Source: a bacterium
Lineage (GTDB): Bacteria > Acidobacteriota > Polarisedimenticolia > J045
NCBI GenBank assembly: GCA_021372775.1
Contig: JAJFTU010000027.1
Coordinates: forward strand, 1-60,108
Length of the DNA stretch: 60,108 nt
Direction: 5' to 3'
A program made the position numbers and the translations under genes. The notes below the pieces were generated by a model, which was given only the letters and a program-made list of their open reading frames with translations, searched no databases and was not told the DNA's origin. Positions 2,978 through 59,122 of the stretch are shown here, piece by piece (the stretch's first letter is position 1; each line of letters opens with the position of its first letter).

Positions 2978-3084
2978 GGGCCGAGGATCGCACGCGCGGC
3001 GCGGCGTGTCAGCCGGCCTTTCGGCGCTTCGAAACCGCGGCGCGAGGACGGAGGGAACGAAGGCGTGCGGCCGCTGCGGCGCGG

Positions 3085-3181
3085 CGCGCCGGGGCGGTCG
3101 ATCAGCCGCGGGGCGCCGTCTGGACCGCGCCGCGCCGGGGCGGTCGATCAGCCGCGGGGCGCCGTCTGGACCGCGCCGCGC
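3085..3181. repeat. Tandem 46-bp duplication across the 3' end of the MglA-GAF gene
   Basis: Two head-to-tail copies, about 3085-3136 and 3131-3181, repeat with a 46-bp period and are identical over the core that begins GGGGCGGTCGATCAGCC (3091 and 3137). The copy nearer the gene carries the real TGA (complement of 3148-3150) and the last codons (GAVQTAPRG). The distal copy repeats the same codons and stop beyond the gene end. It looks like a replication-slippage duplication that leaves the protein intact. Confidence 0.9.
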
Positions 3182-40950: not shown

Positions 40951-41712
40951 TCAGCGGCGCAGCGGGGCGCCGCGCCCCGCGTCGTCCGGGCCGAGGCCGG
41001 CGAGCCACTGATCGATGTGCCGGATGAACTCGTCGATGTGCGCCGCCGCGGCCGCCGCCGCGCGCTCGCCGTCGCGGTCGGCGATCGCCGCGACCAGCTC
41101 CGCGTGCGCCGGACGCGAGTCGCCGCCGATCGTCGCGCCGAGGTGGAACATCAGCGCCTCGAGCGATTCGGCGCTCGTCCGGATCAGGCGCAGCGCGGCG
41201 GCGATGAAGCGGTTCCCCGAGGCCTCGGCCAACGTCTGGTGGAAGTCGAGCGCCTCCTGCGCGCCGCGTCCTCCCGCCTCGACGTTTTTGGCCTGCGCCT
41301 CGGCGATCCGCTGCAGCGTGGCCACCTGTTCCTGCGTCGCCCGCTCGGCCGCCTCGCGCGCCATCTCCGCCTCGAGCCCGCGCCGCGCGAGCATCGCGTT
41401 CCGCAGCTCGGTCAGCGTGGAGCGGCCGACCGCGCGCAGCACGCGGTCGCTCGACTGGAAGGCGGCGCGCCGCGCCTGCGTCCGCTCGAGCCACGTGCGC
41501 CCCGTCGCCGTGATCGTGCGCCCCTTGTTGCTCACCTTCTCCGCGAAACCGCGGCGGGTGAGCGAGTCGAGCGCGCGGCTGACGGTGGGCCGGCTCGTGG
41601 CGACGCCGCGCGCGAGGAGACGCTCCAGGATCGCCCCCGAGCCGACGGGGCCGGGGGTTTGGGCGAGTTCGGCGGCGACGAGCGCCGGCAGGTCGCGGAA
41701 GCGCGGTTTCAT
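40951..41712 (-). CDS. FCD-domain transcriptional regulator
   Basis: A 253-residue DNA-binding protein. Residues 1-75 form a winged helix (GAILERLLARGVATSRPTVS, RALDSLTRRGFAEKVSNKGR), not the usual GntR wHTH sequence. Residues 95-240 are an all-helical FCD domain (LRNAMLARRGLEAEMAREAA, ALDFHQTLAEASGNRFIAAA) with metal/ligand histidines (DFH, MFH, HAEL, H near the end). FCD regulators respond to organic acids. No metabolic operon is adjacent except the convergent glycolytic genes, so the target is unknown. Confidence 0.85.
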   Translation of the reverse strand: MKPRFRDLPALVAAELAQTPGPVGSGAILERLLARGVATSRPTVSRALDSLTRRGFAEKVSNKGRTITATGRTWLERTQARRAAFQSSDRVLRAVGRSTLTELRNAMLARRGLEAEMAREAAERATQEQVATLQRIAEAQAKNVEAGGRGAQEALDFHQTLAEASGNRFIAAALRLIRTSAESLEALMFHLGATIGGDSRPAHAELVAAIADRDGERAAAAAAAHIDEFIRHIDQWLAGLGPDDAGRGAPLRR

Positions 41713-41850: not shown

Positions 41851-44800
41851 CTACTTGAGGTGGAGCACGGCGTCGAACGTCACCGTCGCGCCGCTCGAGG
41901 CGGGGCTCTTGTCGCCCGAGACGACGACGCGGAGCGTGTGGGCGCCGGCGGCCAGGCCGCGGATGTGGAACGCCCAGACGCGCCACTCTTCGGACGGCGC
42001 GTAGAGATCGACGCCCGCGGCGGGAGCGCCGTCGATCAGGATCGTGGCGATCCCTTGGTCGGGGCCGCGCTTCATCAACAGGCTCGCGCCGGTCCCTTCC
42101 AGCGCCGCGCCGCCGTCGAGGAAGAGCGGGATCGTCGCCGCGGCGTCCTTGACCGCGGAGGCGACGGCGCGCCCGCCGCTCGCGCGGACGTCGAGCTGTT
42201 CGGTCCAGCCCGCGGAGAGGGCGACGCTCGGGTCGTTCTCCTCGCGGAACCAGCGGGCGTGGGCCCCTTCGGCGTCGTCGGCCGCGACCGTGTCCACGAG
42301 GAAGAAGTGCGTCGCGCCGTCGCCTCCGAGGCCGGAGAGGGTGAACGTCGTCGCCGGGGCGGCGACGTAGTAGTTGTTCGCCGCGGTCGCCGGATCGACG
42401 GTCGGCAGCGCGCCTTCGTAGATCCGGTACCCCTTCATCGCCGCCGCGCCGGAACCGAGGTCGGCGGTCGCCGCGGACCAGTCGAGCCGCAGGTCGCCGC
42501 CGGAGCGGGCGACGCGCACGTCGTCCACGAACGGCGGCGCGCCGTCTCCCGTCGGCCGCGCCCAGACTTCCGGGCTCCGCCCGCTCTCGACGCCGCCGCG
42601 CAGCGCGGTGACGACGTAGCGGTGGGCGAGGCCGTTGATCAGGCCGGCGTCGCGGTAGGAGAGGGCCAGGAGCGGCGCGGCGTTGAGCTTGGCGAACGCG
42701 CCGCTCTCGATCGCGCGGTAGACGTTGTAGCCGGTCGCGCCCGGCAGCGCCGGCGGGCCCCAGAAGACCGTGACCATCGAGTTGTCGGGGTGCGCGGCCG
42801 GAGCGGTGGGGATGTCGGGCAGGGCGACGGTGAAGCGGCGCGAGGCCGGGGCGGAGACGTTCCCCGCCTTGTCGGCCGCGCGGACGAGCGCCGCGATCTC
42901 GCCGTTCTGCGTCGGGGCGAAGCTGTAGCTCCACGAACCGCCGCCGGCGGCGAGGATCCACGTCGTTCCGCCGTCGAAGCTGAGCTGCACGTAGTCGAGG
43001 CCGGCGCCGACGTCCTGCGCGGTGCCGGAGAGCGTCGTCGGGGTCGCGGCGATCGTCGCCCGGTCGGCCGGCGAGGACCAGGCGACCGTCGGGGCCGTCG
43101 TGTCGGCGCCGAAGACGAAGTAGCGGACTTCCGACGTCCACGGCGAGGCGGCGTGGCGGTTGTCCACGGCGCGCAGGCGCCAGTAGTAGGTCCGCTGCGA
43201 GACGAGCGACGCGTAGCCCGGCAGGTCGCCGAGCGGCGCGGTGATCGTCGGCAGCGCGGCGGCCAGGTCGTTCTTCGCCGTCGCGCTGAGACCGGTCGCC
43301 GAAACCTCGGGGGCGCCGAAGTTCGGGTCGTCGTCGATCTCGAGGTCGTACGTCACCGTGTCGCCGGGATTCGGATCGACGGAGGCGTACCAGGTGAGCG
43401 CGGCCTCGGCGCCCCAGAGCTGCGCGCCGTTCGGCGGCGCGACGAACTTCGGCGCCGGCGGCGCGTCGTTGCGCAGGACGACGTAGAAGGCGGCCGGCGC
43501 CATCCACGGCCCTTCGTGCCCTTCGGGATCGCGGCCCCGAGCGCGCCACCAGTAGCGGGTGTTGTTGGCGAGGTCGGTGTCCACCGTCCACGACGTCGTG
43601 CTCGTTCCTTCGGCGACCGCGGGGACCTCGGCGACGGTCGAGTCGAACGAGGAGTCGGACGCGACCTGGATCCGGTAGGTGAGCGGGTCGAACTGGTAGT
43701 CGAGCGCGTTGTCGAGCGTCAGCGTCGGGCGGAGGACGCCGACCGCGCCGCCGTCCGGCGGGTCGTGCGGCGCGGGCGCCCCCGGCGTCGGCTCGCCGAT
43801 CCGCACGGCGTCCACGTGGACGACCGCGTCGGCGCCGCCGTAGCAGGTGTTGAGGAAGCCGCGCAGCCGCAGGTGCGCGTTCTTCAAAGGCGAGATGTCC
43901 ACCGTCGTCTTGACCCACGTCGCGTCGGAGGCCCAGTCGTTCCCGCGGATCGTCCCCGGCACGTCGGTCCAGGTGATCCCGCCGTCGATCGAGGACTGGA
44001 AGCGGAAGGTGCTGCACCAGTACATGTGCCCGCGGATCCAGTAGGACAGGGACGGGCTCGTCGCCGCGGAGAGGTCGAGCTCGCCGGCGAAGGCGAAGCT
44101 GTGGTTGGCGTCGGCCCAGATCCGCTGGCCGGGGGTCGCGACGAGGTCGGCCGCGCCTTCCTTCGGGAGGTCCGCGCCCTGGACCCACGCCGAGGGGAGC
44201 AGGTCGTCGAGCGCTCCTTCGAAGCTCTGCGCGTAGGGGTAGGGAAGCGGGGCGTGCGCGTTCTCGACGACGGCGAAGTCGTCGATCGACCAGCCGTCGG
44301 CCTGGATGCCGCAGCCGTCGGAGAGCGAGCGGAAGCGGATCCAGACGTTCTCCTGCCCCTTCCACGGGCTGAGGTCGATCTGCGCGCGGCGCCAGTCGGG
44401 ACGCGTGCCGGTGACGGTGTAGACGCGCGTCCACGACGATCCTTCGTTCGTCATCACCTCCACGACGCCCCAGTCGTAGTTGTCCTGGTAGGCGTAGCGG
44501 TCGTGGAAGGTCAGCACCGGCCACGAGGCGTTCTTCAGATTGACGGAGGTCGTCGCCGAGGCGTCCATGCCGCAGGGGTAGTCGCCGATCGAATCGACGA
44601 GCGCGGCGCCGCCGTTGCGGCCCGCGCCGCTCTGGACGGCCCACGTCCCGGTCATGGTCCAGTGGTCGTTCGGCGTCTCGAAGTCGTCCGCCGCCGACGA
44701 CGGGACGAGCGGCGCGGTCCGCGCCGAGACGACGTTCGAGGGACTGTACGCGTCGTGGACGTCCTGCGCGTAGAGGCGGTAGTAGTAGGTCTTGCCCGCC

Positions 44801-47800
44801 TGCAGGCCGGTGTCCACGAACTGCGTCGCCGCGCGGTCGCCGAGCGTCGCGACGAGCGCGCTGCCGAGGCCGACGCCGTTCGTGGTGTCGCGGTAGAGCA
44901 GGTAGGACCTGAACGACGGCGCGTCGGCGTATGCGCTCCAGGAGAGGCGCATCGAGCCGTTGCCGATCGAGTCGGGCGGCGCGAGGACCGGCGCCGCCGG
45001 CAGCTCCGACACGGCGACGTCGTCGATGGAGAAGTCTTCGTCGGCGCCGCCCCAACACGAGGCGACCTCGAACAGCAGGCGCACGGCCTGTCCTTTGTAG
45101 CCGGAAAGGTCGACCTGCGCGCGGCGCCAGGCCCCGGAGGAATTCCAGTCGTTCCCCTGGCCGAAGAGCGAGCCGCTCCAGGTCGCGCCGCCGTCGGTGG
45201 AGGCGTAGACGTTGAGGCTGCTGCACCAGTAGGCGTGGCCGGACATCCAGAAGGTGAGCTGCGGGTTCCGCGCCGCGGCGAGGTCGATCTGGCCGTTCAG
45301 CAGAAGCTGTTCGTAGCCGCTGTTCCAGAGGTTGCCGTCGGCGCTGCTGCGGACGCTCGCCGCGCCGCCGTGGACCGCGTCGGCGGCGACCGTCCAGCGG
45401 CTCGCCTGCCAGTTGCCGAGGCCGGACTCGAAGCCGTCGGTGAACGGGAAGGCGAAGGTCTTCCAGCCGTCGGCCTCGCCGATCGTCACGTCGTCGATCC
45501 GCCAGCCGGCGTTGGTCGTGCCGCCGTCGGTGGCGACGCGGAAGCGGATCCGCAGGTTCGTCTGGCCGCGCCAGCGGGTGAGGTCGATCCGCTGCCTCGC
45601 CCAGGCGGCGCGGACGCCGGTGACGACGTACGGCCGCTGCCAGTTGTTTCCGTCGGCGCTGACCTCGACGCTGCCGTAGTCGGCGTTCTGCTGGAAGGCG
45701 GGCTGGTCCCAGAAGCTCAGGACCGGGTGGACCGCCGCGGTCAGGTCCACCGCGGTGAGGATGTAGGTGCTGCTGCTGTTCGGGTAGTCGCTCGTCGGCG
45801 AGCTGGCGATGCAGCTTCCGGTCGCGCCGTCGCGGCCCGGCGAGAGCGGGCCCCACGTCGGCTGGTCGGCGCTGTCGGTTCCGCGGACCCAGTTCCGCAG
45901 GTCGTCCATCGCGTCGGCGACCGGATAGGGCAGCGGGACGGTGACGGCGGAGCGCTCGTTGCTCGGGGCGACCGTGCCGTACGTGTCGAAGGTGAAGACC
46001 TTGTAGTAGTAGGTCGCGCCGATGGCGAGCCCTTCCGGCGGGTTTTCGTCGAGGGCGCTCACCGTGTTCACGTCGGCGATCGAGGCGACGAGCGTTCCGT
46101 CGAGCGTGACGCCCGGCGAAGTCGAGCGGCGGACTTCGTAGCGGGCGAAGTTCGGGTCGCTCGACTTGGTCCAGGCCAGTTCGGCGGTCTTGAGGTGCGG
46201 CGTCGGCGCGGCGAGGGTCACGGCCGTCGGAAGATCTTCCACGCGCACGTCGTCGACGTAGAAGTCCTCGTCGGCGCCGCCCCAGCAGGAGCTGACTTCG
46301 AACAGCAGACGCACGGCCTTTCCCTTGTAGCCGGAAAGGTCCACCTGCGCGCGGCGCCACGTCCCGGAGGTGTTCCAGTCGCTCCCTTGGCCGAAGAGCG
46401 TGCCGCTCCAGGTCGCGCCGCCGTCGGTGGAGGCGTAGACGTTGAAGCCGCTGCACCAGTAGGCGTGGCCGGTCATCCAGAACGTGAGCTGCGGATTCTG
46501 CGCCGCGGCGAGATCGATCTCGCCGTTCAGCAGAAGCTGCTCGTAGCCGCTGTTCCAGAGGTTGCCGTCGGCGCTGCTGCGGGCGCTCGCCGCGCCGCCG
46601 TGGACCGCGTCGGCGGCGATCGTCCAGCGGCTCGTCTGCCAGTTTCCGAGGCCGGATTCGAACGTCTCGGTGAACGGGAAGGGGAAGGCCGTCCAGCCCT
46701 CGGCCTCGCCGATCGTCACGTCGTCGATCCGCCAGCCGGCGTTGGTCGTGCCGGCGTCCGTGGAAACGCGGAAGCGGACGCGCAGGTTCGTCTGGCCGCG
46801 CCAGCGGGTGAGGTCGATCCGCTGCTTCGCCCAGGCGGCGCGGACGCCGGTGACGACGTACGGCCGCTGCCAGTTGTTTCCGTCGGCGCTGACCTCGACG
46901 CTGCCGTAGTCGGCGTTCTGCTGGAAGGCGGGCTGGTCCCAGAAAGTCAGGACGGGGTGGACCGCCGCGGTCAGGTCCACCGCGGTGAGGATGTAGGTGC
47001 TGCTGTTGTTCGGGTAGTCGGTCGTCGGCGAGCTGGCGATGCAGGTTCCGGTCTCGCCGTCGCGGCCCGGCGAGAGCGGGCCCCACGTCGGCTGGTCGGC
47101 GCTGTCGGTCCCGCGGACCCAGTTCCGCAGGTCGTCCATCGCGTCGGCGACCGGATACGCGAGCGGCACCGTCGTGGCGGAGCGCTCGTTGCTCGGCGTG
47201 ACCGTGCCGTACGTGTCGAACGTGAAGACCTTGTAGTAGTACGTCGCGCCGATGGCGAGCCCTTCCGGCGGGTTGTCGTCGAGGGCGCTCACCGTGTTCA
47301 CGTCGGCGATCAAGGCGACGAGCGTCCCGTCGAGCGTCACGTTGGGCGACGTCGAGCGCCGGACCTCGTAGCGGGCGAAGTTCGGGTCGCTCGACTTGGT
47401 CCAGGCGAGTTCGGCGGTCTTGAGGCGCGGCGTCGGCGCGGCGAGGGTCACCGCCGTCGGGAGGTCTTCGACGCGCACGTCGTCGATGTAGAAGTCCTCG
47501 TCGGCGCCCCCCCAGCAGGTGGAGACCTGGAACATCAGGCGGGTCTTCTGTCCCTTGTAGGCGGAGAGGTCCACCTGCGCGCGGCGCCACGTCCCGGAGG
47601 TGTTCCAGTCGTTCCCCTGGCCGAAGAGCGAGCCGCTCCAAGTCGCGCCGCCGTCGGTGGAGGCGTAGACGTTGAAGCCGCTGCACCAGTAGGCGTGGCC
47701 GGACATCCAGAACGTGAGCTGCGGGTTCGCCGACCCGGCGAGGTCGAGCTCGCCGTTCAGGACGAGCCGCTCGTAGCCGTCGCTCCAGAGATTGCCGTCG

Positions 47801-49938
47801 GCGCTGCTGCGGGCGCTCGCCGCGCCGCCGTGCGCCGCGTCGGCGGCGACCGTCCAGCGGCTGGCCTGCCAGGCGCCGAGGCCGGACTCGAAGGTCTCGG
47901 TGAACGGCAGCGCGATCGTCGGCAGCGGCGCGACGTCCTTCACTTCGACGTCGTCGATGTACCAGCCGTCGGCGACGGTCCCGGCGTTCGTGGCCACGCG
48001 GAAACGGATCCGCAGGTTCGCCTGTCCGCGCCACGGCGAGAGGTCGATCACCTGGCGCGCCCAGTCGAGGCGCGTTCCGGTGGCGACGTACGGCCGGGAC
48101 CAGTTCGCGCCGTCCGCGCTGACCTCGAGGGCGGCGAAGTCGGCGTTCTGCTCCAAGGCGAAGCGGTCCCAGAACGACAACGCGGGGTTGAGGGCGCCGC
48201 GCAGATCGACGGCCGTCATCGCGTAGGTGTCCGAGTTGTTGGCGTAGTCGCCGGGGCTGTCCTGCAGGACGAAGGCCCCGCCGTGCGCCGGGACGACGCT
48301 GGTCTTCGACCAGCCGCCGGTGAAGGTCCAGGCGTCGAGCGCCCCTTCGAAGCCGTCCGCGAACGGCAGCGGGTTGTTGAGCGTCGTCGCCGCGGCTTCG
48401 GCCGCGCTGTCCGGGCTGAAGCAGCCCCAGCGGTTCACGGCGTAGACCCGGTAGTAGTAGGTCGTGTTGAGCGCGAGGCCGCGGTCGTCGAAGGTCGTCG
48501 CGGCGACGTCGTGGATCTCGGCGGCGATCGTGCCGTAGACCCCGGCGTTGGGGGAGGTCGAGCGGACGACTTCGTAGTGGTCGAAGCCGCTTCCCGTCGC
48601 CTGCGGCCACGCGACCCGGATGGCGTGCGAGTCGAGCGGCGTCGGCGTCGGCGTCGCCAGCGCGGCGAGCGGCTCGGAGACGGCGACGTCGTCGAGATGC
48701 CAGCCGTCGCCGTTCGTCGCCCCGTCGGCCGTGACGCGGAACCGCACCAGCGTCGCCTGCGCCTTGTAGGCCGAGAGGTCCACCTGCACGTACGTCCAGG
48801 CGGCGACGGTCCCGTTGGTGAAGTCGCGCAGCGCGGTCCAGGTCTGCCCGTTGTCGGTCGAGACCTCGACGAGGCCGTGGTCGTTGCCGGGGAAGTCGTA
48901 GGTGTGCCGGAAGGAGAGGGTCGGACGCGTCGCGGCGCGCAGGTCGAGCGGCGCGGCGAGCGTCAACGACGCGTTGACGTTCGCGGCGTAGGGGCCGCCC
49001 GGCGAATCGCTCCACGCCGAAGCGCCGCCGTACGCGGCCTCGGTCGAAAGGGCCCAAGGCACGTCGGCCCGCCAGGTCGCCGCCCCCGCCTCGCCGTCGT
49101 CGAGGAACGGGAAGTCCATCCCCGCCGACGTCGTCGCCGAGACTTCGTCGGAGGCCGCCTCGATCCCGTTGCCGCGGGCGACGACGACCCGGTAGTGGTA
49201 GCGGCTCTTCGGGTTGAGGGCGACGTCGGTGAAGTTCGTCGTGGACGCCGCGCCGAAGGAGGCGACCGTCGTCGCCGTCCGCCAGTCGAAGCCCTGCGTC
49301 GCGGAGCGGACGACGCGGTAGCCGGCGAAGTCGGCGGCGGCCGAAGCCGTCCAGGAGAGGGCGATGGTGTTGGCGGTGACGGCGCCGGCGGTCGCCGTCG
49401 GCGCGTCCGGCGCCTCGTCGACCACCACGTCGTCCACGTGCCAGCCGTCGAGCGTCACGTTGGCGTCGCTGACGAGGCGGAAGCGGAGCTTCACCGTCGC
49501 CTGCGTCTTGTAGGCCGAGAGGTCGATCTGCTCGCGCCGCCAGGCCGCGTTGCCGGTGAACGAGGCGAGCGGGGAGGCCTGCCAACTCGCGCCGCCGTCG
49601 AGCGAGATCTCGACGTAGCCGAAGTCGTACCCCGGCTCGAGGTTGAACGTGTGCCAGAACGACAGGCGCGGCCGCGTCGACCGCGTCAGGTCGAGCGAGT
49701 CCCGCATCGTCAGCGCGACGTTCGCGTTGTTGGCGTAGTTGGCGCCCGGGCTGTCGCTGAAGGCGAAGCTCCCCGCGTGCGCGCTCTCCGCGCTCGCCGC
49801 CCACGGCGGCGCGGCGGACCACTGACCCGCGCCCGCTTCCGCGCCGTCCGCGAACGGATAGGCGGCCAACGCGAAGCCCGCGGCGGCGGCGAGGACAATC
49901 GACAGACACACGACAAGACGAACGGCGCGTTCGGGCAT
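41851..49938 (-). CDS. Giant secreted multidomain protein: ten jelly-roll (MAM-like) modules with FN3 domains
   Basis: A 2,695-residue exported protein without any catalytic domain I can see. ATG 49938 after GGAGGAG opens a signal peptide (VRLVVCLSIVLAAAAGFALA). Ten modules of about 150 residues follow, each with an FESGLGNWQ-like start, S-DGGATW, an RRAQVDLSAYKGQ-like strand and a DEDFYIDDV-like end. FN3 domains are interspersed. The C-terminal third has several FN3/Ig-like domains and a final carbohydrate-binding-like jelly roll (VDLYAPSEEWRVWAF, KSPASSGATVTFDAVLH). Four modules share YWCS and SCWGG cysteines. The central part is repeated at 1,230-bp period. A likely adhesin or matrix protein; role inferred. 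Confidence 0.88.
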   Translation of the reverse strand: MPERAVRLVVCLSIVLAAAAGFALAAYPFADGAEAGAGQWSAAPPWAASAESAHAGSFAFSDSPGANYANNANVALTMRDSLDLTRSTRPRLSFWHTFNLEPGYDFGYVEISLDGGASWQASPLASFTGNAAWRREQIDLSAYKTQATVKLRFRLVSDANVTLDGWHVDDVVVDEAPDAPTATAGAVTANTIALSWTASAAADFAGYRVVRSATQGFDWRTATTVASFGAASTTNFTDVALNPKSRYHYRVVVARGNGIEAASDEVSATTSAGMDFPFLDDGEAGAATWRADVPWALSTEAAYGGASAWSDSPGGPYAANVNASLTLAAPLDLRAATRPTLSFRHTYDFPGNDHGLVEVSTDNGQTWTALRDFTNGTVAAWTYVQVDLSAYKAQATLVRFRVTADGATNGDGWHLDDVAVSEPLAALATPTPTPLDSHAIRVAWPQATGSGFDHYEVVRSTSPNAGVYGTIAAEIHDVAATTFDDRGLALNTTYYYRVYAVNRWGCFSPDSAAEAAATTLNNPLPFADGFEGALDAWTFTGGWSKTSVVPAHGGAFVLQDSPGDYANNSDTYAMTAVDLRGALNPALSFWDRFALEQNADFAALEVSADGANWSRPYVATGTRLDWARQVIDLSPWRGQANLRIRFRVATNAGTVADGWYIDDVEVKDVAPLPTIALPFTETFESGLGAWQASRWTVAADAAHGGAASARSSADGNLWSDGYERLVLNGELDLAGSANPQLTFWMSGHAYWCSGFNVYASTDGGATWSGSLFGQGNDWNTSGTWRRAQVDLSAYKGQKTRLMFQVSTCWGGADEDFYIDDVRVEDLPTAVTLAAPTPRLKTAELAWTKSSDPNFARYEVRRSTSPNVTLDGTLVALIADVNTVSALDDNPPEGLAIGATYYYKVFTFDTYGTVTPSNERSATTVPLAYPVADAMDDLRNWVRGTDSADQPTWGPLSPGRDGETGTCIASSPTTDYPNNSSTYILTAVDLTAAVHPVLTFWDQPAFQQNADYGSVEVSADGNNWQRPYVVTGVRAAWAKQRIDLTRWRGQTNLRVRFRVSTDAGTTNAGWRIDDVTIGEAEGWTAFPFPFTETFESGLGNWQTSRWTIAADAVHGGAASARSSADGNLWNSGYEQLLLNGEIDLAAAQNPQLTFWMTGHAYWCSGFNVYASTDGGATWSGTLFGQGSDWNTSGTWRRAQVDLSGYKGKAVRLLFEVSSCWGGADEDFYVDDVRVEDLPTAVTLAAPTPHLKTAELAWTKSSDPNFARYEVRRSTSPGVTLDGTLVASIADVNTVSALDENPPEGLAIGATYYYKVFTFDTYGTVAPSNERSAVTVPLPYPVADAMDDLRNWVRGTDSADQPTWGPLSPGRDGATGSCIASSPTSDYPNSSSTYILTAVDLTAAVHPVLSFWDQPAFQQNADYGSVEVSADGNNWQRPYVVTGVRAAWARQRIDLTRWRGQTNLRIRFRVATDGGTTNAGWRIDDVTIGEADGWKTFAFPFTDGFESGLGNWQASRWTVAADAVHGGAASVRSSADGNLWNSGYEQLLLNGQIDLAAARNPQLTFWMSGHAYWCSSLNVYASTDGGATWSGSLFGQGNDWNSSGAWRRAQVDLSGYKGQAVRLLFEVASCWGGADEDFSIDDVAVSELPAAPVLAPPDSIGNGSMRLSWSAYADAPSFRSYLLYRDTTNGVGLGSALVATLGDRAATQFVDTGLQAGKTYYYRLYAQDVHDAYSPSNVVSARTAPLVPSSAADDFETPNDHWTMTGTWAVQSGAGRNGGAALVDSIGDYPCGMDASATTSVNLKNASWPVLTFHDRYAYQDNYDWGVVEVMTNEGSSWTRVYTVTGTRPDWRRAQIDLSPWKGQENVWIRFRSLSDGCGIQADGWSIDDFAVVENAHAPLPYPYAQSFEGALDDLLPSAWVQGADLPKEGAADLVATPGQRIWADANHSFAFAGELDLSAATSPSLSYWIRGHMYWCSTFRFQSSIDGGITWTDVPGTIRGNDWASDATWVKTTVDISPLKNAHLRLRGFLNTCYGGADAVVHVDAVRIGEPTPGAPAPHDPPDGGAVGVLRPTLTLDNALDYQFDPLTYRIQVASDSSFDSTVAEVPAVAEGTSTTSWTVDTDLANNTRYWWRARGRDPEGHEGPWMAPAAFYVVLRNDAPPAPKFVAPPNGAQLWGAEAALTWYASVDPNPGDTVTYDLEIDDDPNFGAPEVSATGLSATAKNDLAAALPTITAPLGDLPGYASLVSQRTYYWRLRAVDNRHAASPWTSEVRYFVFGADTTAPTVAWSSPADRATIAATPTTLSGTAQDVGAGLDYVQLSFDGGTTWILAAGGGSWSYSFAPTQNGEIAALVRAADKAGNVSAPASRRFTVALPDIPTAPAAHPDNSMVTVFWGPPALPGATGYNVYRAIESGAFAKLNAAPLLALSYRDAGLINGLAHRYVVTALRGGVESGRSPEVWARPTGDGAPPFVDDVRVARSGGDLRLDWSAATADLGSGAAAMKGYRIYEGALPTVDPATAANNYYVAAPATTFTLSGLGGDGATHFFLVDTVAADDAEGAHARWFREENDPSVALSAGWTEQLDVRASGGRAVASAVKDAAATIPLFLDGGAALEGTGASLLMKRGPDQGIATILIDGAPAAGVDLYAPSEEWRVWAFHIRGLAAGAHTLRVVVSGDKSPASSGATVTFDAVLHLK
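45011..47930. repeat. Tandem 1,230-bp repeat array inside the giant gene (about 2.4 copies)
   Basis: Matching sequence recurs at 45301, 46531 and 47761, exactly 1,230 bp (410 codons) apart. The unit encodes one cysteine-bearing jelly roll, one FN3 and one DAMDDLRNWV-type jelly roll. Some stretches are base-identical over more than 100 bp, for example 45597-45714 and 46827-46944. Elsewhere copies differ at scattered sites, many of them third codon positions. The frame is kept throughout. Confidence 0.93.
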
Positions 49939-55155: not shown

Positions 55156-58100
55156 CTAGTTGGTCGCGCGCGGCAGCTTGCAGCTTCCGACGGTCGCTTC
55201 GGGCAGCTCGTACCCGGCCGAGTTGCGGCCGTACGGCCCTTCGTAGGCGCCGTTGTTCCCGACCGCCACGAAGTAGAACACCTGGCCGGCCTGCGGCGTG
55301 CCCGGATCGAACGAGGCGGACCCGGTCGCCCCGAGGCCGCAGAACGACTGGGTCCACTGCAGCCCGGAGAGCGGCGCGACCGCCGTGCCCATGTAGACGG
55401 TCGTGCCGGTCGTGTTGCTGCCGGCGGCGAAGGCCAGGTTCACCGCGCTTCCCGCGGCCTTGGCGACGGTCATCGTGCCGGCCGCGGAGACCTCGCCCGG
55501 CAGGTTCGACGAGCCGGCCGTGCAGGCGCCGCGGACGTCGAGGTCGAGGAACCAGGAGTTGAGCGTGCCGGTGTCGCCGGGCCCGCAGTCCTGGACCAGC
55601 AGCTGCCAGACGCCGTTCGGGGCCTCGCTGTAGAGGTCGGCGAGGAAGCCGTCGGCCGGCGTCTGGCTGTCGAAGACGGTGTTGAGGTTCTGCGTCGGGT
55701 CGGCGCCGCCGCCCTTGAGCAAGACCTGCTTTCCGGACGGCGCCTGGATCACGATGTCGAGGTCGCCGATGTAGGTGTGCGTGATGTTCACGCCGACCTG
55801 CACGTTGGTCAGCGTGCCGCCGTCGGGAACGGTGATCGAACGGGACAGGAGCGTGCCGCAGGCGGTCGAGGTGGCGTCCGTGATCGCCGCGGGGAGCCCG
55901 GCCGCGGCGTCGTCGTAGTGCTTGACGCCGCCGGCGCCGGTGACCAGCACGGAGCGCTGGACGCTGTTCGCGTCGGTCGCGCCGGTCGCCGCGTCGGTGG
56001 CGCGGACGACGTAGTAGTAGGTCGCCGCGTTGGCCACGCTCAGCGTGTCGGTGAAGCTGGTCTGGCCGATCCCCTTGGCGAGCAGCGTCGACGAGCTCGG
56101 GGCGAAGCCCTTCGTCGTCGAGCGGTGGACTTCGTAGAGGACGTTGCCGCCGCAGTTGGCGGTCGCGGCGCTCCAGTGGAGCGTCGTGCCGCAGGTGGCG
56201 CCGCCCGCCGCGTCGATCGAGGAGAGGCCGGCGAAGGTCGGCGGAACGAGGCAGACGCCGGAAGGCTGGCGCGCGATCTCGTTGGAGTCGGCCGACTCGC
56301 ACGAGCCGAAGGCCCGCACGACGTAGTAGTTGAGCCGGTCCGCGGTGGCCGTCGGGTCGTCGTAGCCCGGGCCGGCCGTCGTCGCGATCTGCGTGTAGGG
56401 GCCGCCCGCGGTGTAGGCGCGGTAGACGTGGTACTCGCTCGCCCCGGAGACCGCGCCCCAGTAGAGGGCGACGTGATTGCCGGAGAGCGCCGTTCCGGTG
56501 AGGCCGGCGGGGGCCGCCGGGCCGGTGCACGCGGCGAGGTTGTAGCCGTAGAGCGCGAAGTCCTGGTCGATCGAGATCCCGTTGCCCGGAACGCCGTCGT
56601 CGACGAGGTTCGCGGCGCGGACCGTGATCCTGAGCGTGCGCGCGGCGCCGGCCGGCAGCACGACGACTTCGAGGTTGTTCTTGGCGTCGGCCGTTCCGCC
56701 GGCCACGGAGTAGCCGTTCGACGTCGCGCCGAAGTTGTTGCCGACGTAGGTCGAGCCGTTGTCGTCGACCACCAGGTCGAGATCGTTCTTCCACGGGGCC
56801 GAGCTGGTGTTGCCGGGGGCGTCGGTCCAGGCGAGGACGATCTTGACCGGCTTGTCGGTCGCGGAGACGGTGGCGTACTTCACGTAGGTCTCGCCGGTGC
56901 TCTTCAGCAGGACCGTCTGGTCCACGCGCAGGGCGGGCGTGCCGTCGAACAGCCGACCGACGTTGATCCGGCCCCACCCCTCGTGGACGTTCGGGATCTT
57001 CGGCATCGGCACCGAGGGGGCCACGCACTTGGTGTAGTCGCCCGCGGCGCCGGCGGGGGCGCAGCCGCCCTCGTCGCCCATGTCGCTCGCGGTCGCCGCG
57101 AAAGCGGCCTTGACCAGCGCCGGGCTCGGGGCGGCGAAGCCGTGGTCGAGCGACCAGCGGTAGAAGAGGGCCGCCGATCCCGCTGCGGCCGGGGTCGCCG
57201 CGCTGGTGCCGTTGTGGAGCTGGTAGAGGGTCTTGTCGGCCGTGTCCCACGCCGGGAAGGCGGTCGAGGTCTGGACTTGGCTCTTCGTGGCGACCCAGCC
57301 GTGCGCGATCGCCGTGACGTCCGGCTTGATCCGGCCGTCGGCCGTGGGGCCGCGGCTGCTGTAGTAGAGCAGGTCGCGCCCGGCGGTGTTGTTCTGGATC
57401 GGCTTGTAGCCGGTGAGGGCGACGCCGGTCCAGAAGTTCTCGGTCGCGCCGAGGGTGAGGACGTTCTTCGCCGTCGCCGGCGGGGTCACGGTGCCGAAGC
57501 TCGCGTTGACCCCTTCGTTCCCGGCGGCGAAGACGATGATCATCTGCTGGTTGCCGGCGTCGCTCGTCGCGTCGCGGACGATCCGGTCGTAGTCGCGCGC
57601 CGGAATGTTGTAGTAGGAGAAGGCCGAGGTCCCCGACGGCTTGCTCCCCCAGCTGTTGCTGCTGATCCGCGCGCCGGCGTGGTAGGCGTCCTGCTCCATC
57701 TGCGTGTACGAGGTGATCGACGTCCACTTGCCGTTGTGGTCGAAGACCTTCGACGCGCCGAGCATCGCCAGCGGGGCGACGCCGACGCCGAAGTGATAAC
57801 CCTTCGAGCCGACTTGGCCGGTGCCGGTCCCCGCCGAGTTGTTGTAGCCGGCGATCACGCCGGCGCAGGCGGTGCCGTGCCCTTCGCCGTCGGCGCCGGT
57901 CCAGGTCGCGTCGGTCTGGTCGATCGTGTAGTCGTGGTCGTAGGCCACGCGCGAGACGCCCGAGGGATCGCGCAGGTCCTGATGGATCGTCTTGCCGGCG
58001 ACGTTGCCGACGTCGAGGCCGGTGTCGGTCACGTTGACGACGACGTTCGTCCACGGATGGGCGACGTCGAAGCCCTTCGACTGCAGCCACGAGAGATAGC

Positions 58101-59001
58101 CCTGGCCGGCGGTGCCGAAGCCCGCGGTCATGCCGTCCACCGTGAAGCCGGCGTTGTTGAGGCCGCCCGGCTCGTCCATCGGCGACGGCGCGACGTACGG
58201 CTCCATCCAGAACGAGGCGCCGCTCTTGGCGATGTCGGCGATCTGCGAGGCGTCGATCGCGGCGGCGAAGGAGAGGAACTTGCCGTCGGCGGAGACGCCG
58301 CGCAGCGTGCGGGCCGCGCCTTCGAGCGTGCGCTTGGCCAGCGCGCGCCCTTCCGGGTTGTCGAGGACCATGAACGCGACTTCGGTCTCGCCGGAGCGGC
58401 CGAGCAGTTCCTTGGCCACGCGGTAGGTCGGCTGGTGGACGCCGACGTAGCGCAGCGGCGAGCGGCCGGTCAGGCCGGTCGGCAGCGCGGACGCGAGGCG
58501 GGCGCGCTGTTCGGGGGTCATCCGCACGATGTAGCCGTTGGCCGGCACGTACTCGACGATCTCGACGTCGATCGCGCGCAGCGCGTCGAGCCACGCGGCC
58601 TTGACCGGCCCGTAGAACTGGATCAGGTGAAGCCCCTTCTCGCCGGCCGCGTAGTCGGAGATGGTCAGCGCGAGCGTCTCGGCCGTCGTCGCGAGCGTCT
58701 GCGGCTTCGTTTCGGCTTCGGGGTCGAACGGATAGTCGCGCAGTTCGAGCCGCGCGCCGGCCTCCCGGGCGCCGTCGAGCAGCGCCGGCGAGGCGGCCAG
58801 CGCCTTCAGGCCCGCGTCCGAGGTCTCGACGAGGACGAACGAGCCGTAGTCCTCGAGCGGCTGGGCCTTCGTCGCCGCGAGGAACTTCTGGTACGAGCCG
58901 TCCTTCGGCACGGTGAGGCGGTTTCCCGCGAGGGCGGAGGCGCCGGCGAGCAACAGCGCCGCGGCCGCCGCCGCAAGGCGGATCCAAGAGGGACCTTTCA
59001 T
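55156..59001 (-). CDS. Secreted subtilisin-like serine protease (S8) with FN3 and proprotein-convertase P domain
   Basis: A 1,281-residue exported protease. Signal peptide (WIRLAAAAAALLLAGASALA), a long prodomain-like region to about 310, then the S8 domain with catalytic Asp326 (NVTDTGLD), His375 (EGHGTACAG) and Ser600 (HNGTSAATP); oxyanion Asn495 is in FAAGNEG. A KP-43-type beta-sandwich follows (about 690-825), two FN3 domains (about 830-915 and 920-1020) and a P domain (about 1045-1158: ITHTYIGDLDIVIQAPSG). The 120-residue end is uncharacterised. ATG 59001 gives a normal signal peptide. A likely extracellular nutrient protease. Confidence 0.94.
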   Translation of the reverse strand: MKGPSWIRLAAAAAALLLAGASALAGNRLTVPKDGSYQKFLAATKAQPLEDYGSFVLVETSDAGLKALAASPALLDGAREAGARLELRDYPFDPEAETKPQTLATTAETLALTISDYAAGEKGLHLIQFYGPVKAAWLDALRAIDVEIVEYVPANGYIVRMTPEQRARLASALPTGLTGRSPLRYVGVHQPTYRVAKELLGRSGETEVAFMVLDNPEGRALAKRTLEGAARTLRGVSADGKFLSFAAAIDASQIADIAKSGASFWMEPYVAPSPMDEPGGLNNAGFTVDGMTAGFGTAGQGYLSWLQSKGFDVAHPWTNVVVNVTDTGLDVGNVAGKTIHQDLRDPSGVSRVAYDHDYTIDQTDATWTGADGEGHGTACAGVIAGYNNSAGTGTGQVGSKGYHFGVGVAPLAMLGASKVFDHNGKWTSITSYTQMEQDAYHAGARISSNSWGSKPSGTSAFSYYNIPARDYDRIVRDATSDAGNQQMIIVFAAGNEGVNASFGTVTPPATAKNVLTLGATENFWTGVALTGYKPIQNNTAGRDLLYYSSRGPTADGRIKPDVTAIAHGWVATKSQVQTSTAFPAWDTADKTLYQLHNGTSAATPAAAGSAALFYRWSLDHGFAAPSPALVKAAFAATASDMGDEGGCAPAGAAGDYTKCVAPSVPMPKIPNVHEGWGRINVGRLFDGTPALRVDQTVLLKSTGETYVKYATVSATDKPVKIVLAWTDAPGNTSSAPWKNDLDLVVDDNGSTYVGNNFGATSNGYSVAGGTADAKNNLEVVVLPAGAARTLRITVRAANLVDDGVPGNGISIDQDFALYGYNLAACTGPAAPAGLTGTALSGNHVALYWGAVSGASEYHVYRAYTAGGPYTQIATTAGPGYDDPTATADRLNYYVVRAFGSCESADSNEIARQPSGVCLVPPTFAGLSSIDAAGGATCGTTLHWSAATANCGGNVLYEVHRSTTKGFAPSSSTLLAKGIGQTSFTDTLSVANAATYYYVVRATDAATGATDANSVQRSVLVTGAGGVKHYDDAAAGLPAAITDATSTACGTLLSRSITVPDGGTLTNVQVGVNITHTYIGDLDIVIQAPSGKQVLLKGGGADPTQNLNTVFDSQTPADGFLADLYSEAPNGVWQLLVQDCGPGDTGTLNSWFLDLDVRGACTAGSSNLPGEVSAAGTMTVAKAAGSAVNLAFAAGSNTTGTTVYMGTAVAPLSGLQWTQSFCGLGATGSASFDPGTPQAGQVFYFVAVGNNGAYEGPYGRNSAGYELPEATVGSCKLPRATN

Positions 59002-59116
59002 CTCGACCCTTTCCCCTTGCCGCGCCGGGGGACGCGGCGGGCGACGCGGACTCCCGCCGCGGTCGGGGGCGTCCGAGCCCCGCCGCGCGAGAATCCGCTC
59101 TTCTGCAGAACGACGC

Positions 59117-59122
59117 ATTCTA
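59117..59122 (-). promoter_or_regulatory. Possible -10 element of the subtilase gene
   Basis: TAGAAT on the minus strand, identical to the -10 of the tRNA-Gly promoter, about 115 bp before the start codon. No good -35 is found at 16-18 bp, so it may need an activator or be chance. Confidence 0.35.

Follow-up and report, generated by a model that had tools for sequence, protein, structure and literature searches.

Probable concerted evolution of a tandem jelly roll-jelly roll-FN3 array within a giant acidobacterial gene

The middle of a giant acidobacterial gene consists of closely similar tandem units, each encoding two jelly rolls and one FN3 domain. Comparison of its product with two full-length orthologues newly identified here, 44-50% identical end to end and with identical domain order, indicates that these units probably belong to an old array of constant copy number that has evolved in concert within the gene, rather than to a recent expansion. 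The gene lies in a stretch of 60,108 bp (the window), which is contig C27 of a 3.67-Mb genome in 494 contigs.

The gene, its domains and its 1,230-bp repeat

Several frames are open over positions 41851 to 49938 because GC content is high (72.7% in the window); the minus-strand frame is the gene. The ATG start codon at 49938, behind GGGAGGAG, a third-position GC of 96%, and the full-length orthologues make the gene call sound. The product is probably exported, and its sequence suggests the Sec route. Just downstream, on the same strand, lies a candidate FCD-domain (GntR-type) regulator (40951 to 41712), and elsewhere in the window there is a 46-bp tandem repeat (3080 to 3181; 2.2 copies, 98% matches).

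With the domains of one unit as queries, the order found was SP-M1-F1-M2-F2-B1-A1-F3-B2-A2-F4-B3-A3-F5-B4-A4, followed by Ig/FN3-like domains and a C-terminal beta domain. Thus ten MAM-like jelly rolls and five interspersed FN3 domains follow one another in fixed order. The repeat unit is composed of jelly roll B, jelly roll A, and an FN3 domain, 410 residues in all, with a linker of about 8 residues joining B to A; the searches thereby bear out the initial annotation, which had proposed a single gene with two jelly-roll types and one FN3 per unit. Type A is marked by the motifs YWCS and CWGG, and type B by DAMDDLRNWV. Both types belong to one broad MAM-like family, with scores above the curated cut-offs for PF20773 (InhA-like MAM, 221 bits, cut-off 26.9) and NF038128 (choice-of-anchor J, 156 bits, cut-off 30). 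The features are as follows.

41851 to 49938, minus strand: whole gene for a probably exported multidomain protein of 2695 residues (open frame, ATG, GC3 of 96%, two full-length orthologues)
49861 to 49938, minus strand: predicted signal peptide (SP), about residues 1-26, read by eye from MPERAVRLVVCLSIVLAAAAGFALAA; the N termini of the orthologues are similar
49414 to 49860, minus strand: MAM-like jelly roll M1, residues 27-175, then FN3 domain F1; groups by position across orthologues
48673 to 49119, minus strand: MAM-like jelly roll M2, residues 274-422, then FN3 domain F2; 71-73% identical to M2 of the orthologues
47935 to 48369, minus strand: jelly roll B1, residues 524-668, its first third outside the homogenised block (domain searches)
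47464 to 47910, minus strand: jelly roll A1 with the YWCS/CWGG cysteines, residues 677-825 (domain searches)
47158 to 47463, minus strand: FN3 domain F3, residues 826-927 (domain searches)
46705 to 47157, minus strand: jelly roll B2 of the DAMDDLRNWV type, residues 928-1078 (domain searches, structure model)
46234 to 46680, minus strand: jelly roll A2, residues 1087-1235 (domain searches, structure model)
45928 to 46233, minus strand: FN3 domain F4, residues 1236-1337 (domain searches, structure model)
45475 to 45927, minus strand: jelly roll B3, residues 1338-1488, 97% identical to B2 in nucleotides (domain searches)
45004 to 45450, minus strand: jelly roll A3, residues 1497-1645 (domain searches)
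44704 to 45003, minus strand: FN3 domain F5, residues 1646-1745, not homogenised (domain searches)
43792 to 44703, minus strand: jelly rolls B4 and A4, residues 1746-2049, not homogenised (domain searches)
41854 to 43791, minus strand: Ig/FN3-like domains of the C terminus, then a final beta domain that has no clear Pfam family (poor model, pLDDT 63)
45004 to 48219, minus strand: homogenised block with a 1,230-bp period and about 2.6 copies in DNA, reaching from late B1 through A3 (repeat analysis and codon-level scans; the end at 48219 is approximate)

Other proteins in the class also contain the last domain, of about 125 residues (41854 to 42261), and a genome often has several copies of it (G016, G024, G030, G034, G038, and G040).

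Self-comparison of the gene DNA reveals a clean 1,230-bp diagonal. The repeat families D1 (44975, 46205, and 47435) and D2 (45488, 46718, and 47948) are each spaced 1230 + 1230 bp. Thus, the "exact" repeat of the initial annotation is exact in spacing but not in its copies: the closest pair is about 92% identical (91.7% over 45005 to 46670, with 138 mismatches in 1,666 bp), and a third, incomplete copy is about 80% identical. Against the rest of the window, the stretch from 45005 to 46670 has a background identity of 0.30 +/- 0.03. At a lag of 1230, identity per 120-bp interval is 83-98% over 45000 to 46680 and then drops via 58-75%, reaching the background of about 30-40% by 47040; at a lag of 2460, it is 73-94% over 45000 to 45720. 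The array thus amounts to about 2.6 copies at the DNA level (about 45004 to 48220), nested in a longer run of four B-A pairs at the protein level. All matches of the 1,230-bp DNA on its own contig fall within the gene; on other contigs there are three matches, all weak and 32-55 bp long. The period of the array exceeds the maximum of Tandem Repeats Finder (500), which therefore does not list it.

The 118-bp stretch of base identity mentioned in the initial annotation is indeed the longest exact run between copies over 45005 to 46670. When mismatches are randomly redistributed inside codon positions, such a run has a probability of 0.003, and this clustering of identity points to patchy homogenisation.

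The same array in three genera

Among the 12 genomes searched for the family, which are also the 12 searched for the order, an orthologue is present solely in G009 (contig JAGOJY010000059.1, Acidobacteria bacterium Go_SlDig_bin_260). It is 44% identical end to end and is called here the sludge orthologue, since the name of the bin indicates that it probably came from digester sludge. A first scan of contigs with a single protein as query gave no match. A scan with a two-row alignment then revealed the third member, a protein of 2685 residues from Holophagales bacterium UBA2201 (DCUZ01000075.1; Acidobacteriota) that is 50% identical end to end. UBA2201 carries two tandem genes of the family (locus L043, 2273 to 10330 and 10598 to 12727); the second runs off the end of the contig, and over its first 696 residues it matches the first at 71% identity. 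A 10.4-kb match in UBA2201, considered as possible extra units, was rejected, as it corresponds to these two genes. Viral contigs yielded no relative.

All three full-length proteins, from three genera, contain the same ten jelly rolls and five FN3 domains in the same order. The proposal that copy number may vary between strains gains no support from this comparison, which covers one genome per species. What differs is the relationship among the domains. Domains A1-A3 are 80-86% identical to one another within the window protein, 61-70% within the UBA2201 protein, and 58-61% within the sludge protein, versus 32-44% for the same position between proteins. For B2-B3, the values are 94%, 71%, and 67% within the three proteins, respectively, versus 40-52% between them, and for F3-F4 they are 93%, 79%, and 72%, versus 45-58%. 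For M2 the relationship is reversed: it is 70-73% identical between proteins and less than 50% identical to M1 of its own protein.

Maximum-likelihood trees give the same picture. A1-A3, B2-B3, and F3-F4 group by protein (the sludge A clade has support of 91/94), whereas the position clades of M1, F1, and F2 are well supported, and that of M2 more weakly. Clades by position are rejected for A1 (p-AU 3e-7), A2 (9e-62), A3 (4e-54), F3 (1.5e-4), F4 (1.5e-12), B2 (6e-5), and B3 (1e-9); for B1 such a clade is rejected marginally, and for B4 it is neither supported nor rejected. Codon-level scans place the edges of the block alike in all three proteins: it begins near residue 50 of B1 and ends at the A3/F5 junction.

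Synonymous divergence bears on when the middle units became alike. In the window protein, dS is 0.06 for B2-B3, versus 0.6-1.0 for the same domain between the window species and the other two, and 0.21-0.26 for A1-A3, versus roughly 0.5-1.1 for the same domains between species. Homogenisation in this lineage is therefore younger than the species split. Within the UBA2201 protein, dS is near saturation (1.0-1.9), so homogenisation there is old, the evidence for it being the amino-acid trees. The recent recombination proposed in the initial annotation is thus upheld for the homogenisation but not for the origin of the array, which is probably old, since three genera have it in common, edges included.

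With three proteins compared, an ancestral array would be the simplest reading of the equal edges and equal counts. The common ancestor of the three acidobacterial lineages would already have had a tandem B-A-FN3 array with the edges seen today. Later, homologous recombination between units of the same gene, either gene conversion or unequal exchange that restores the number of units, would have kept the middle units of each lineage alike; the outer domains would have diverged in the normal way. Recombination as the homogenising agent is inferred from these patterns of identity. A more tentative suggestion is that selection has held the number of units fixed over genus-level time while recombination rewrote the middle units jointly, so that the copies of a binding module would change in step within each lineage.

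Separate duplication would also predict the grouping of the middle units by lineage: an ancestor with fewer units could have given rise to three lineages that each duplicated B-A-F to the same count. That such arrays do arise repeatedly is suggested by a distant protein of 2225 residues from another Acidobacteriota family (genome G097, locus L050, contig C118; reverse strand, frame open from base 3032), which has its own series of three tandem jelly roll-jelly roll(-FN3) units of 407-411 residues, 56-66% identical to one another. This protein shares tandem jelly roll-jelly roll-FN3 units with the window protein, but its first jelly roll is of M rather than B type and its C-terminal half differs; it is not an end-to-end orthologue. 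Parallel expansion would, however, require that the same count and the same block edges be reached in three lineages. In addition, the N-terminal form of B2 and B3 (D.M....NWV) is common to all three proteins and differs from that of B1 and B4; two or more unit types must therefore be older than the split. Independent expansion consequently seems unlikely, and the ancestral array is preferred. An assembly artefact, in which units of a metagenome were collapsed, duplicated, or misjoined, can be rejected as most improbable: although the genome is in 494 contigs and identical repeats of a similar kind broke the automated assembly of Porphyromonas gingivalis hagA, which resisted assembly from draft genomes (PMC5266723), the copies here differ at 138 of 1,666 bp, no exact run is longer than 118 bp, a single frame is open throughout, and two independently assembled genomes have the same architecture.

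The composite jelly roll-jelly roll-FN3 unit is rare in the phylum. Strong matches over most of it were found in 3 of 396 Acidobacteriota genomes (G000, G009, and G097); other genomes match single jelly rolls.

Fold, analogues and likely function

The unit B2-A2-F4 (410 residues) was modelled from a 12-row alignment with a pLDDT of 89 and a pTM of 0.80, and its jelly rolls, which the initial annotation had named from sequence, adopt the MAM-like fold. In VIA-align 2 comparisons, the best match is the MAM domain of human meprin beta (Z 16.2, 143 residues aligned, rmsd 2.5). Reelin (2e26) follows with Z 15.8 and 286 residues aligned over both jelly rolls, and reelin fragments are also the top Foldseek matches (E 5.8e-12). 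The K1 and K3 cleaved adhesin domains of gingipain, which rank with the best matches to domain A, give Z values of 15.1 and 14.7 and rmsd values of 2.6 and 2.7, respectively, with 139 residues aligned each at 24-26% identity. The carbohydrate-binding modules CBM61 and CBM16 also appear among the structural matches (Z about 13). Likeness of fold is no proof of like function. The C-terminal 646 residues modelled poorly (pLDDT 63, pTM 0.32), and the FN3-type structural matches of this region were set aside, their rmsd being mostly large.

The YWCS and C(W/Y)GG cysteines occur in all four A domains of the window protein. Numbered by unit, they are residues 235 and 291; in the model they lie just past strands 222-231 and 281-289, and a disulfide between them is plausible. 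In the UBA2201 orthologue neither position is a cysteine; in the sludge orthologue only the second is, there as a vicinal CC. The orthologues thus do not share the pair, any disulfide would be a lineage feature, and the cysteines by which the initial annotation told this type apart are not supported as a defining feature.

The initial annotation knew of no characterised protein with this architecture. Its exact order is indeed unmatched; nevertheless, there are close parallels. The best characterised analogue is HagA of P. gingivalis, in which repeated K3-K2 pairs of cleaved adhesin domains are encoded by direct repeats (PMC5266723). Cleaved adhesin proteins have been tied to heme binding and hemagglutination (PMC11500903). 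Like HagA, the window protein is a giant, probably exported protein without a catalytic domain, whose paired jelly rolls arise from large tandem direct DNA repeats. The number of HagA repeats differs among strains, with one additional K3-K2 repeat in ATCC 33277 (PMC5266723, which credits the variable number to Kozarov 1998), whereas the window family has the same count in three genera, with one genome per species. HagA is exported by type IX secretion via a C-terminal domain; whole-protein Pfam and NCBIfam scans detected none in the window protein. FN3 is not described in the HagA pairs but is present in the window unit. Pfam does not report the cleaved adhesin family PF07675 in the window protein at E <= 1, despite the K1 and K3 structural matches.

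By the model, no solved structure comes closer to the paired jelly rolls than reelin repeats. Both proteins have tandem paired jelly rolls with Asp boxes (the motif S.DGG..W is seen in the alignment), and Pfam Reelin_subrepeat-B scores 100.7 bits in the window protein, above its cut-off. Yet reelin repeats have an EGF module between their sub-repeats (PMC4882317) and no FN3 in the repeat, and Pfam finds no EGF in the window protein. Moreover, an rmsd of 6.6 over both domains indicates that the two jelly rolls are oriented differently to each other than in reelin. Common descent of the whole unit with reelin is not claimed. With neither a type IX C-terminal domain nor EGF, the window protein is a member of neither the HagA nor the reelin class; it is a member of the MAM-like/choice-of-anchor J domain family (NF038128, PF20773). 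Choice-of-anchor J and InhA-like MAM domains usually occur singly or in small numbers, on secreted peptidases or together with a C-terminal anchor. The window protein, by comparison, has ten in series and no detected anchor.

The protein is apparently elongated and non-catalytic. From its signal peptide, its fold, and its lack of enzyme domains, it is fairly likely to be a multivalent secreted adhesin or matrix component, as the initial annotation had inferred in proposing a secreted modular adhesin or scaffold. Binding would fall to each B-A pair as a module, in the manner of reelin repeats and HagA, and the FN3 domains would be spacers. The jelly rolls might instead target a degradative enzyme or complex to carbohydrate, as the CBM61 and CBM16 matches, the matches of secreted M36 peptidase models to the same domains, and the nearby gene for a secreted S8 peptidase would allow. 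However, Pfam and NCBIfam scans detected no catalytic family across the 2695 residues, and no gene neighbourhood is kept across the three loci, a peptidase with P domains being near two of them only; a role in enzyme targeting is thus improbable. The S8 peptidase, of 1320 residues and with a P domain, is encoded a few genes away at 55156 to 59118, and the trypsin-like protein encoded beside the G009 orthologue has three P domains. A connection to a peptidase operon, which these neighbours had suggested, was dropped, since gene order is not shared.

Significance of the pattern

Taken together, the likely explanation of the whole is an old array, homogenised within the gene, that encodes an exported, non-catalytic adhesin or matrix protein. 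The evolutionary pattern is well supported, but the system that shows it is not a new one: sticky proteins of this kind are known. The family adds a composite unit of jelly roll, jelly roll, and FN3 to the extracellular proteins of the HagA/reelin-like class. It also allows recent duplication to be told apart from recent homogenisation, so near-identical internal repeats should not be read as recent expansion. Within one comparison of three proteins, ordinary orthologous evolution is seen at the ends of the gene and concerted evolution in its middle, while the number of units is unchanged.
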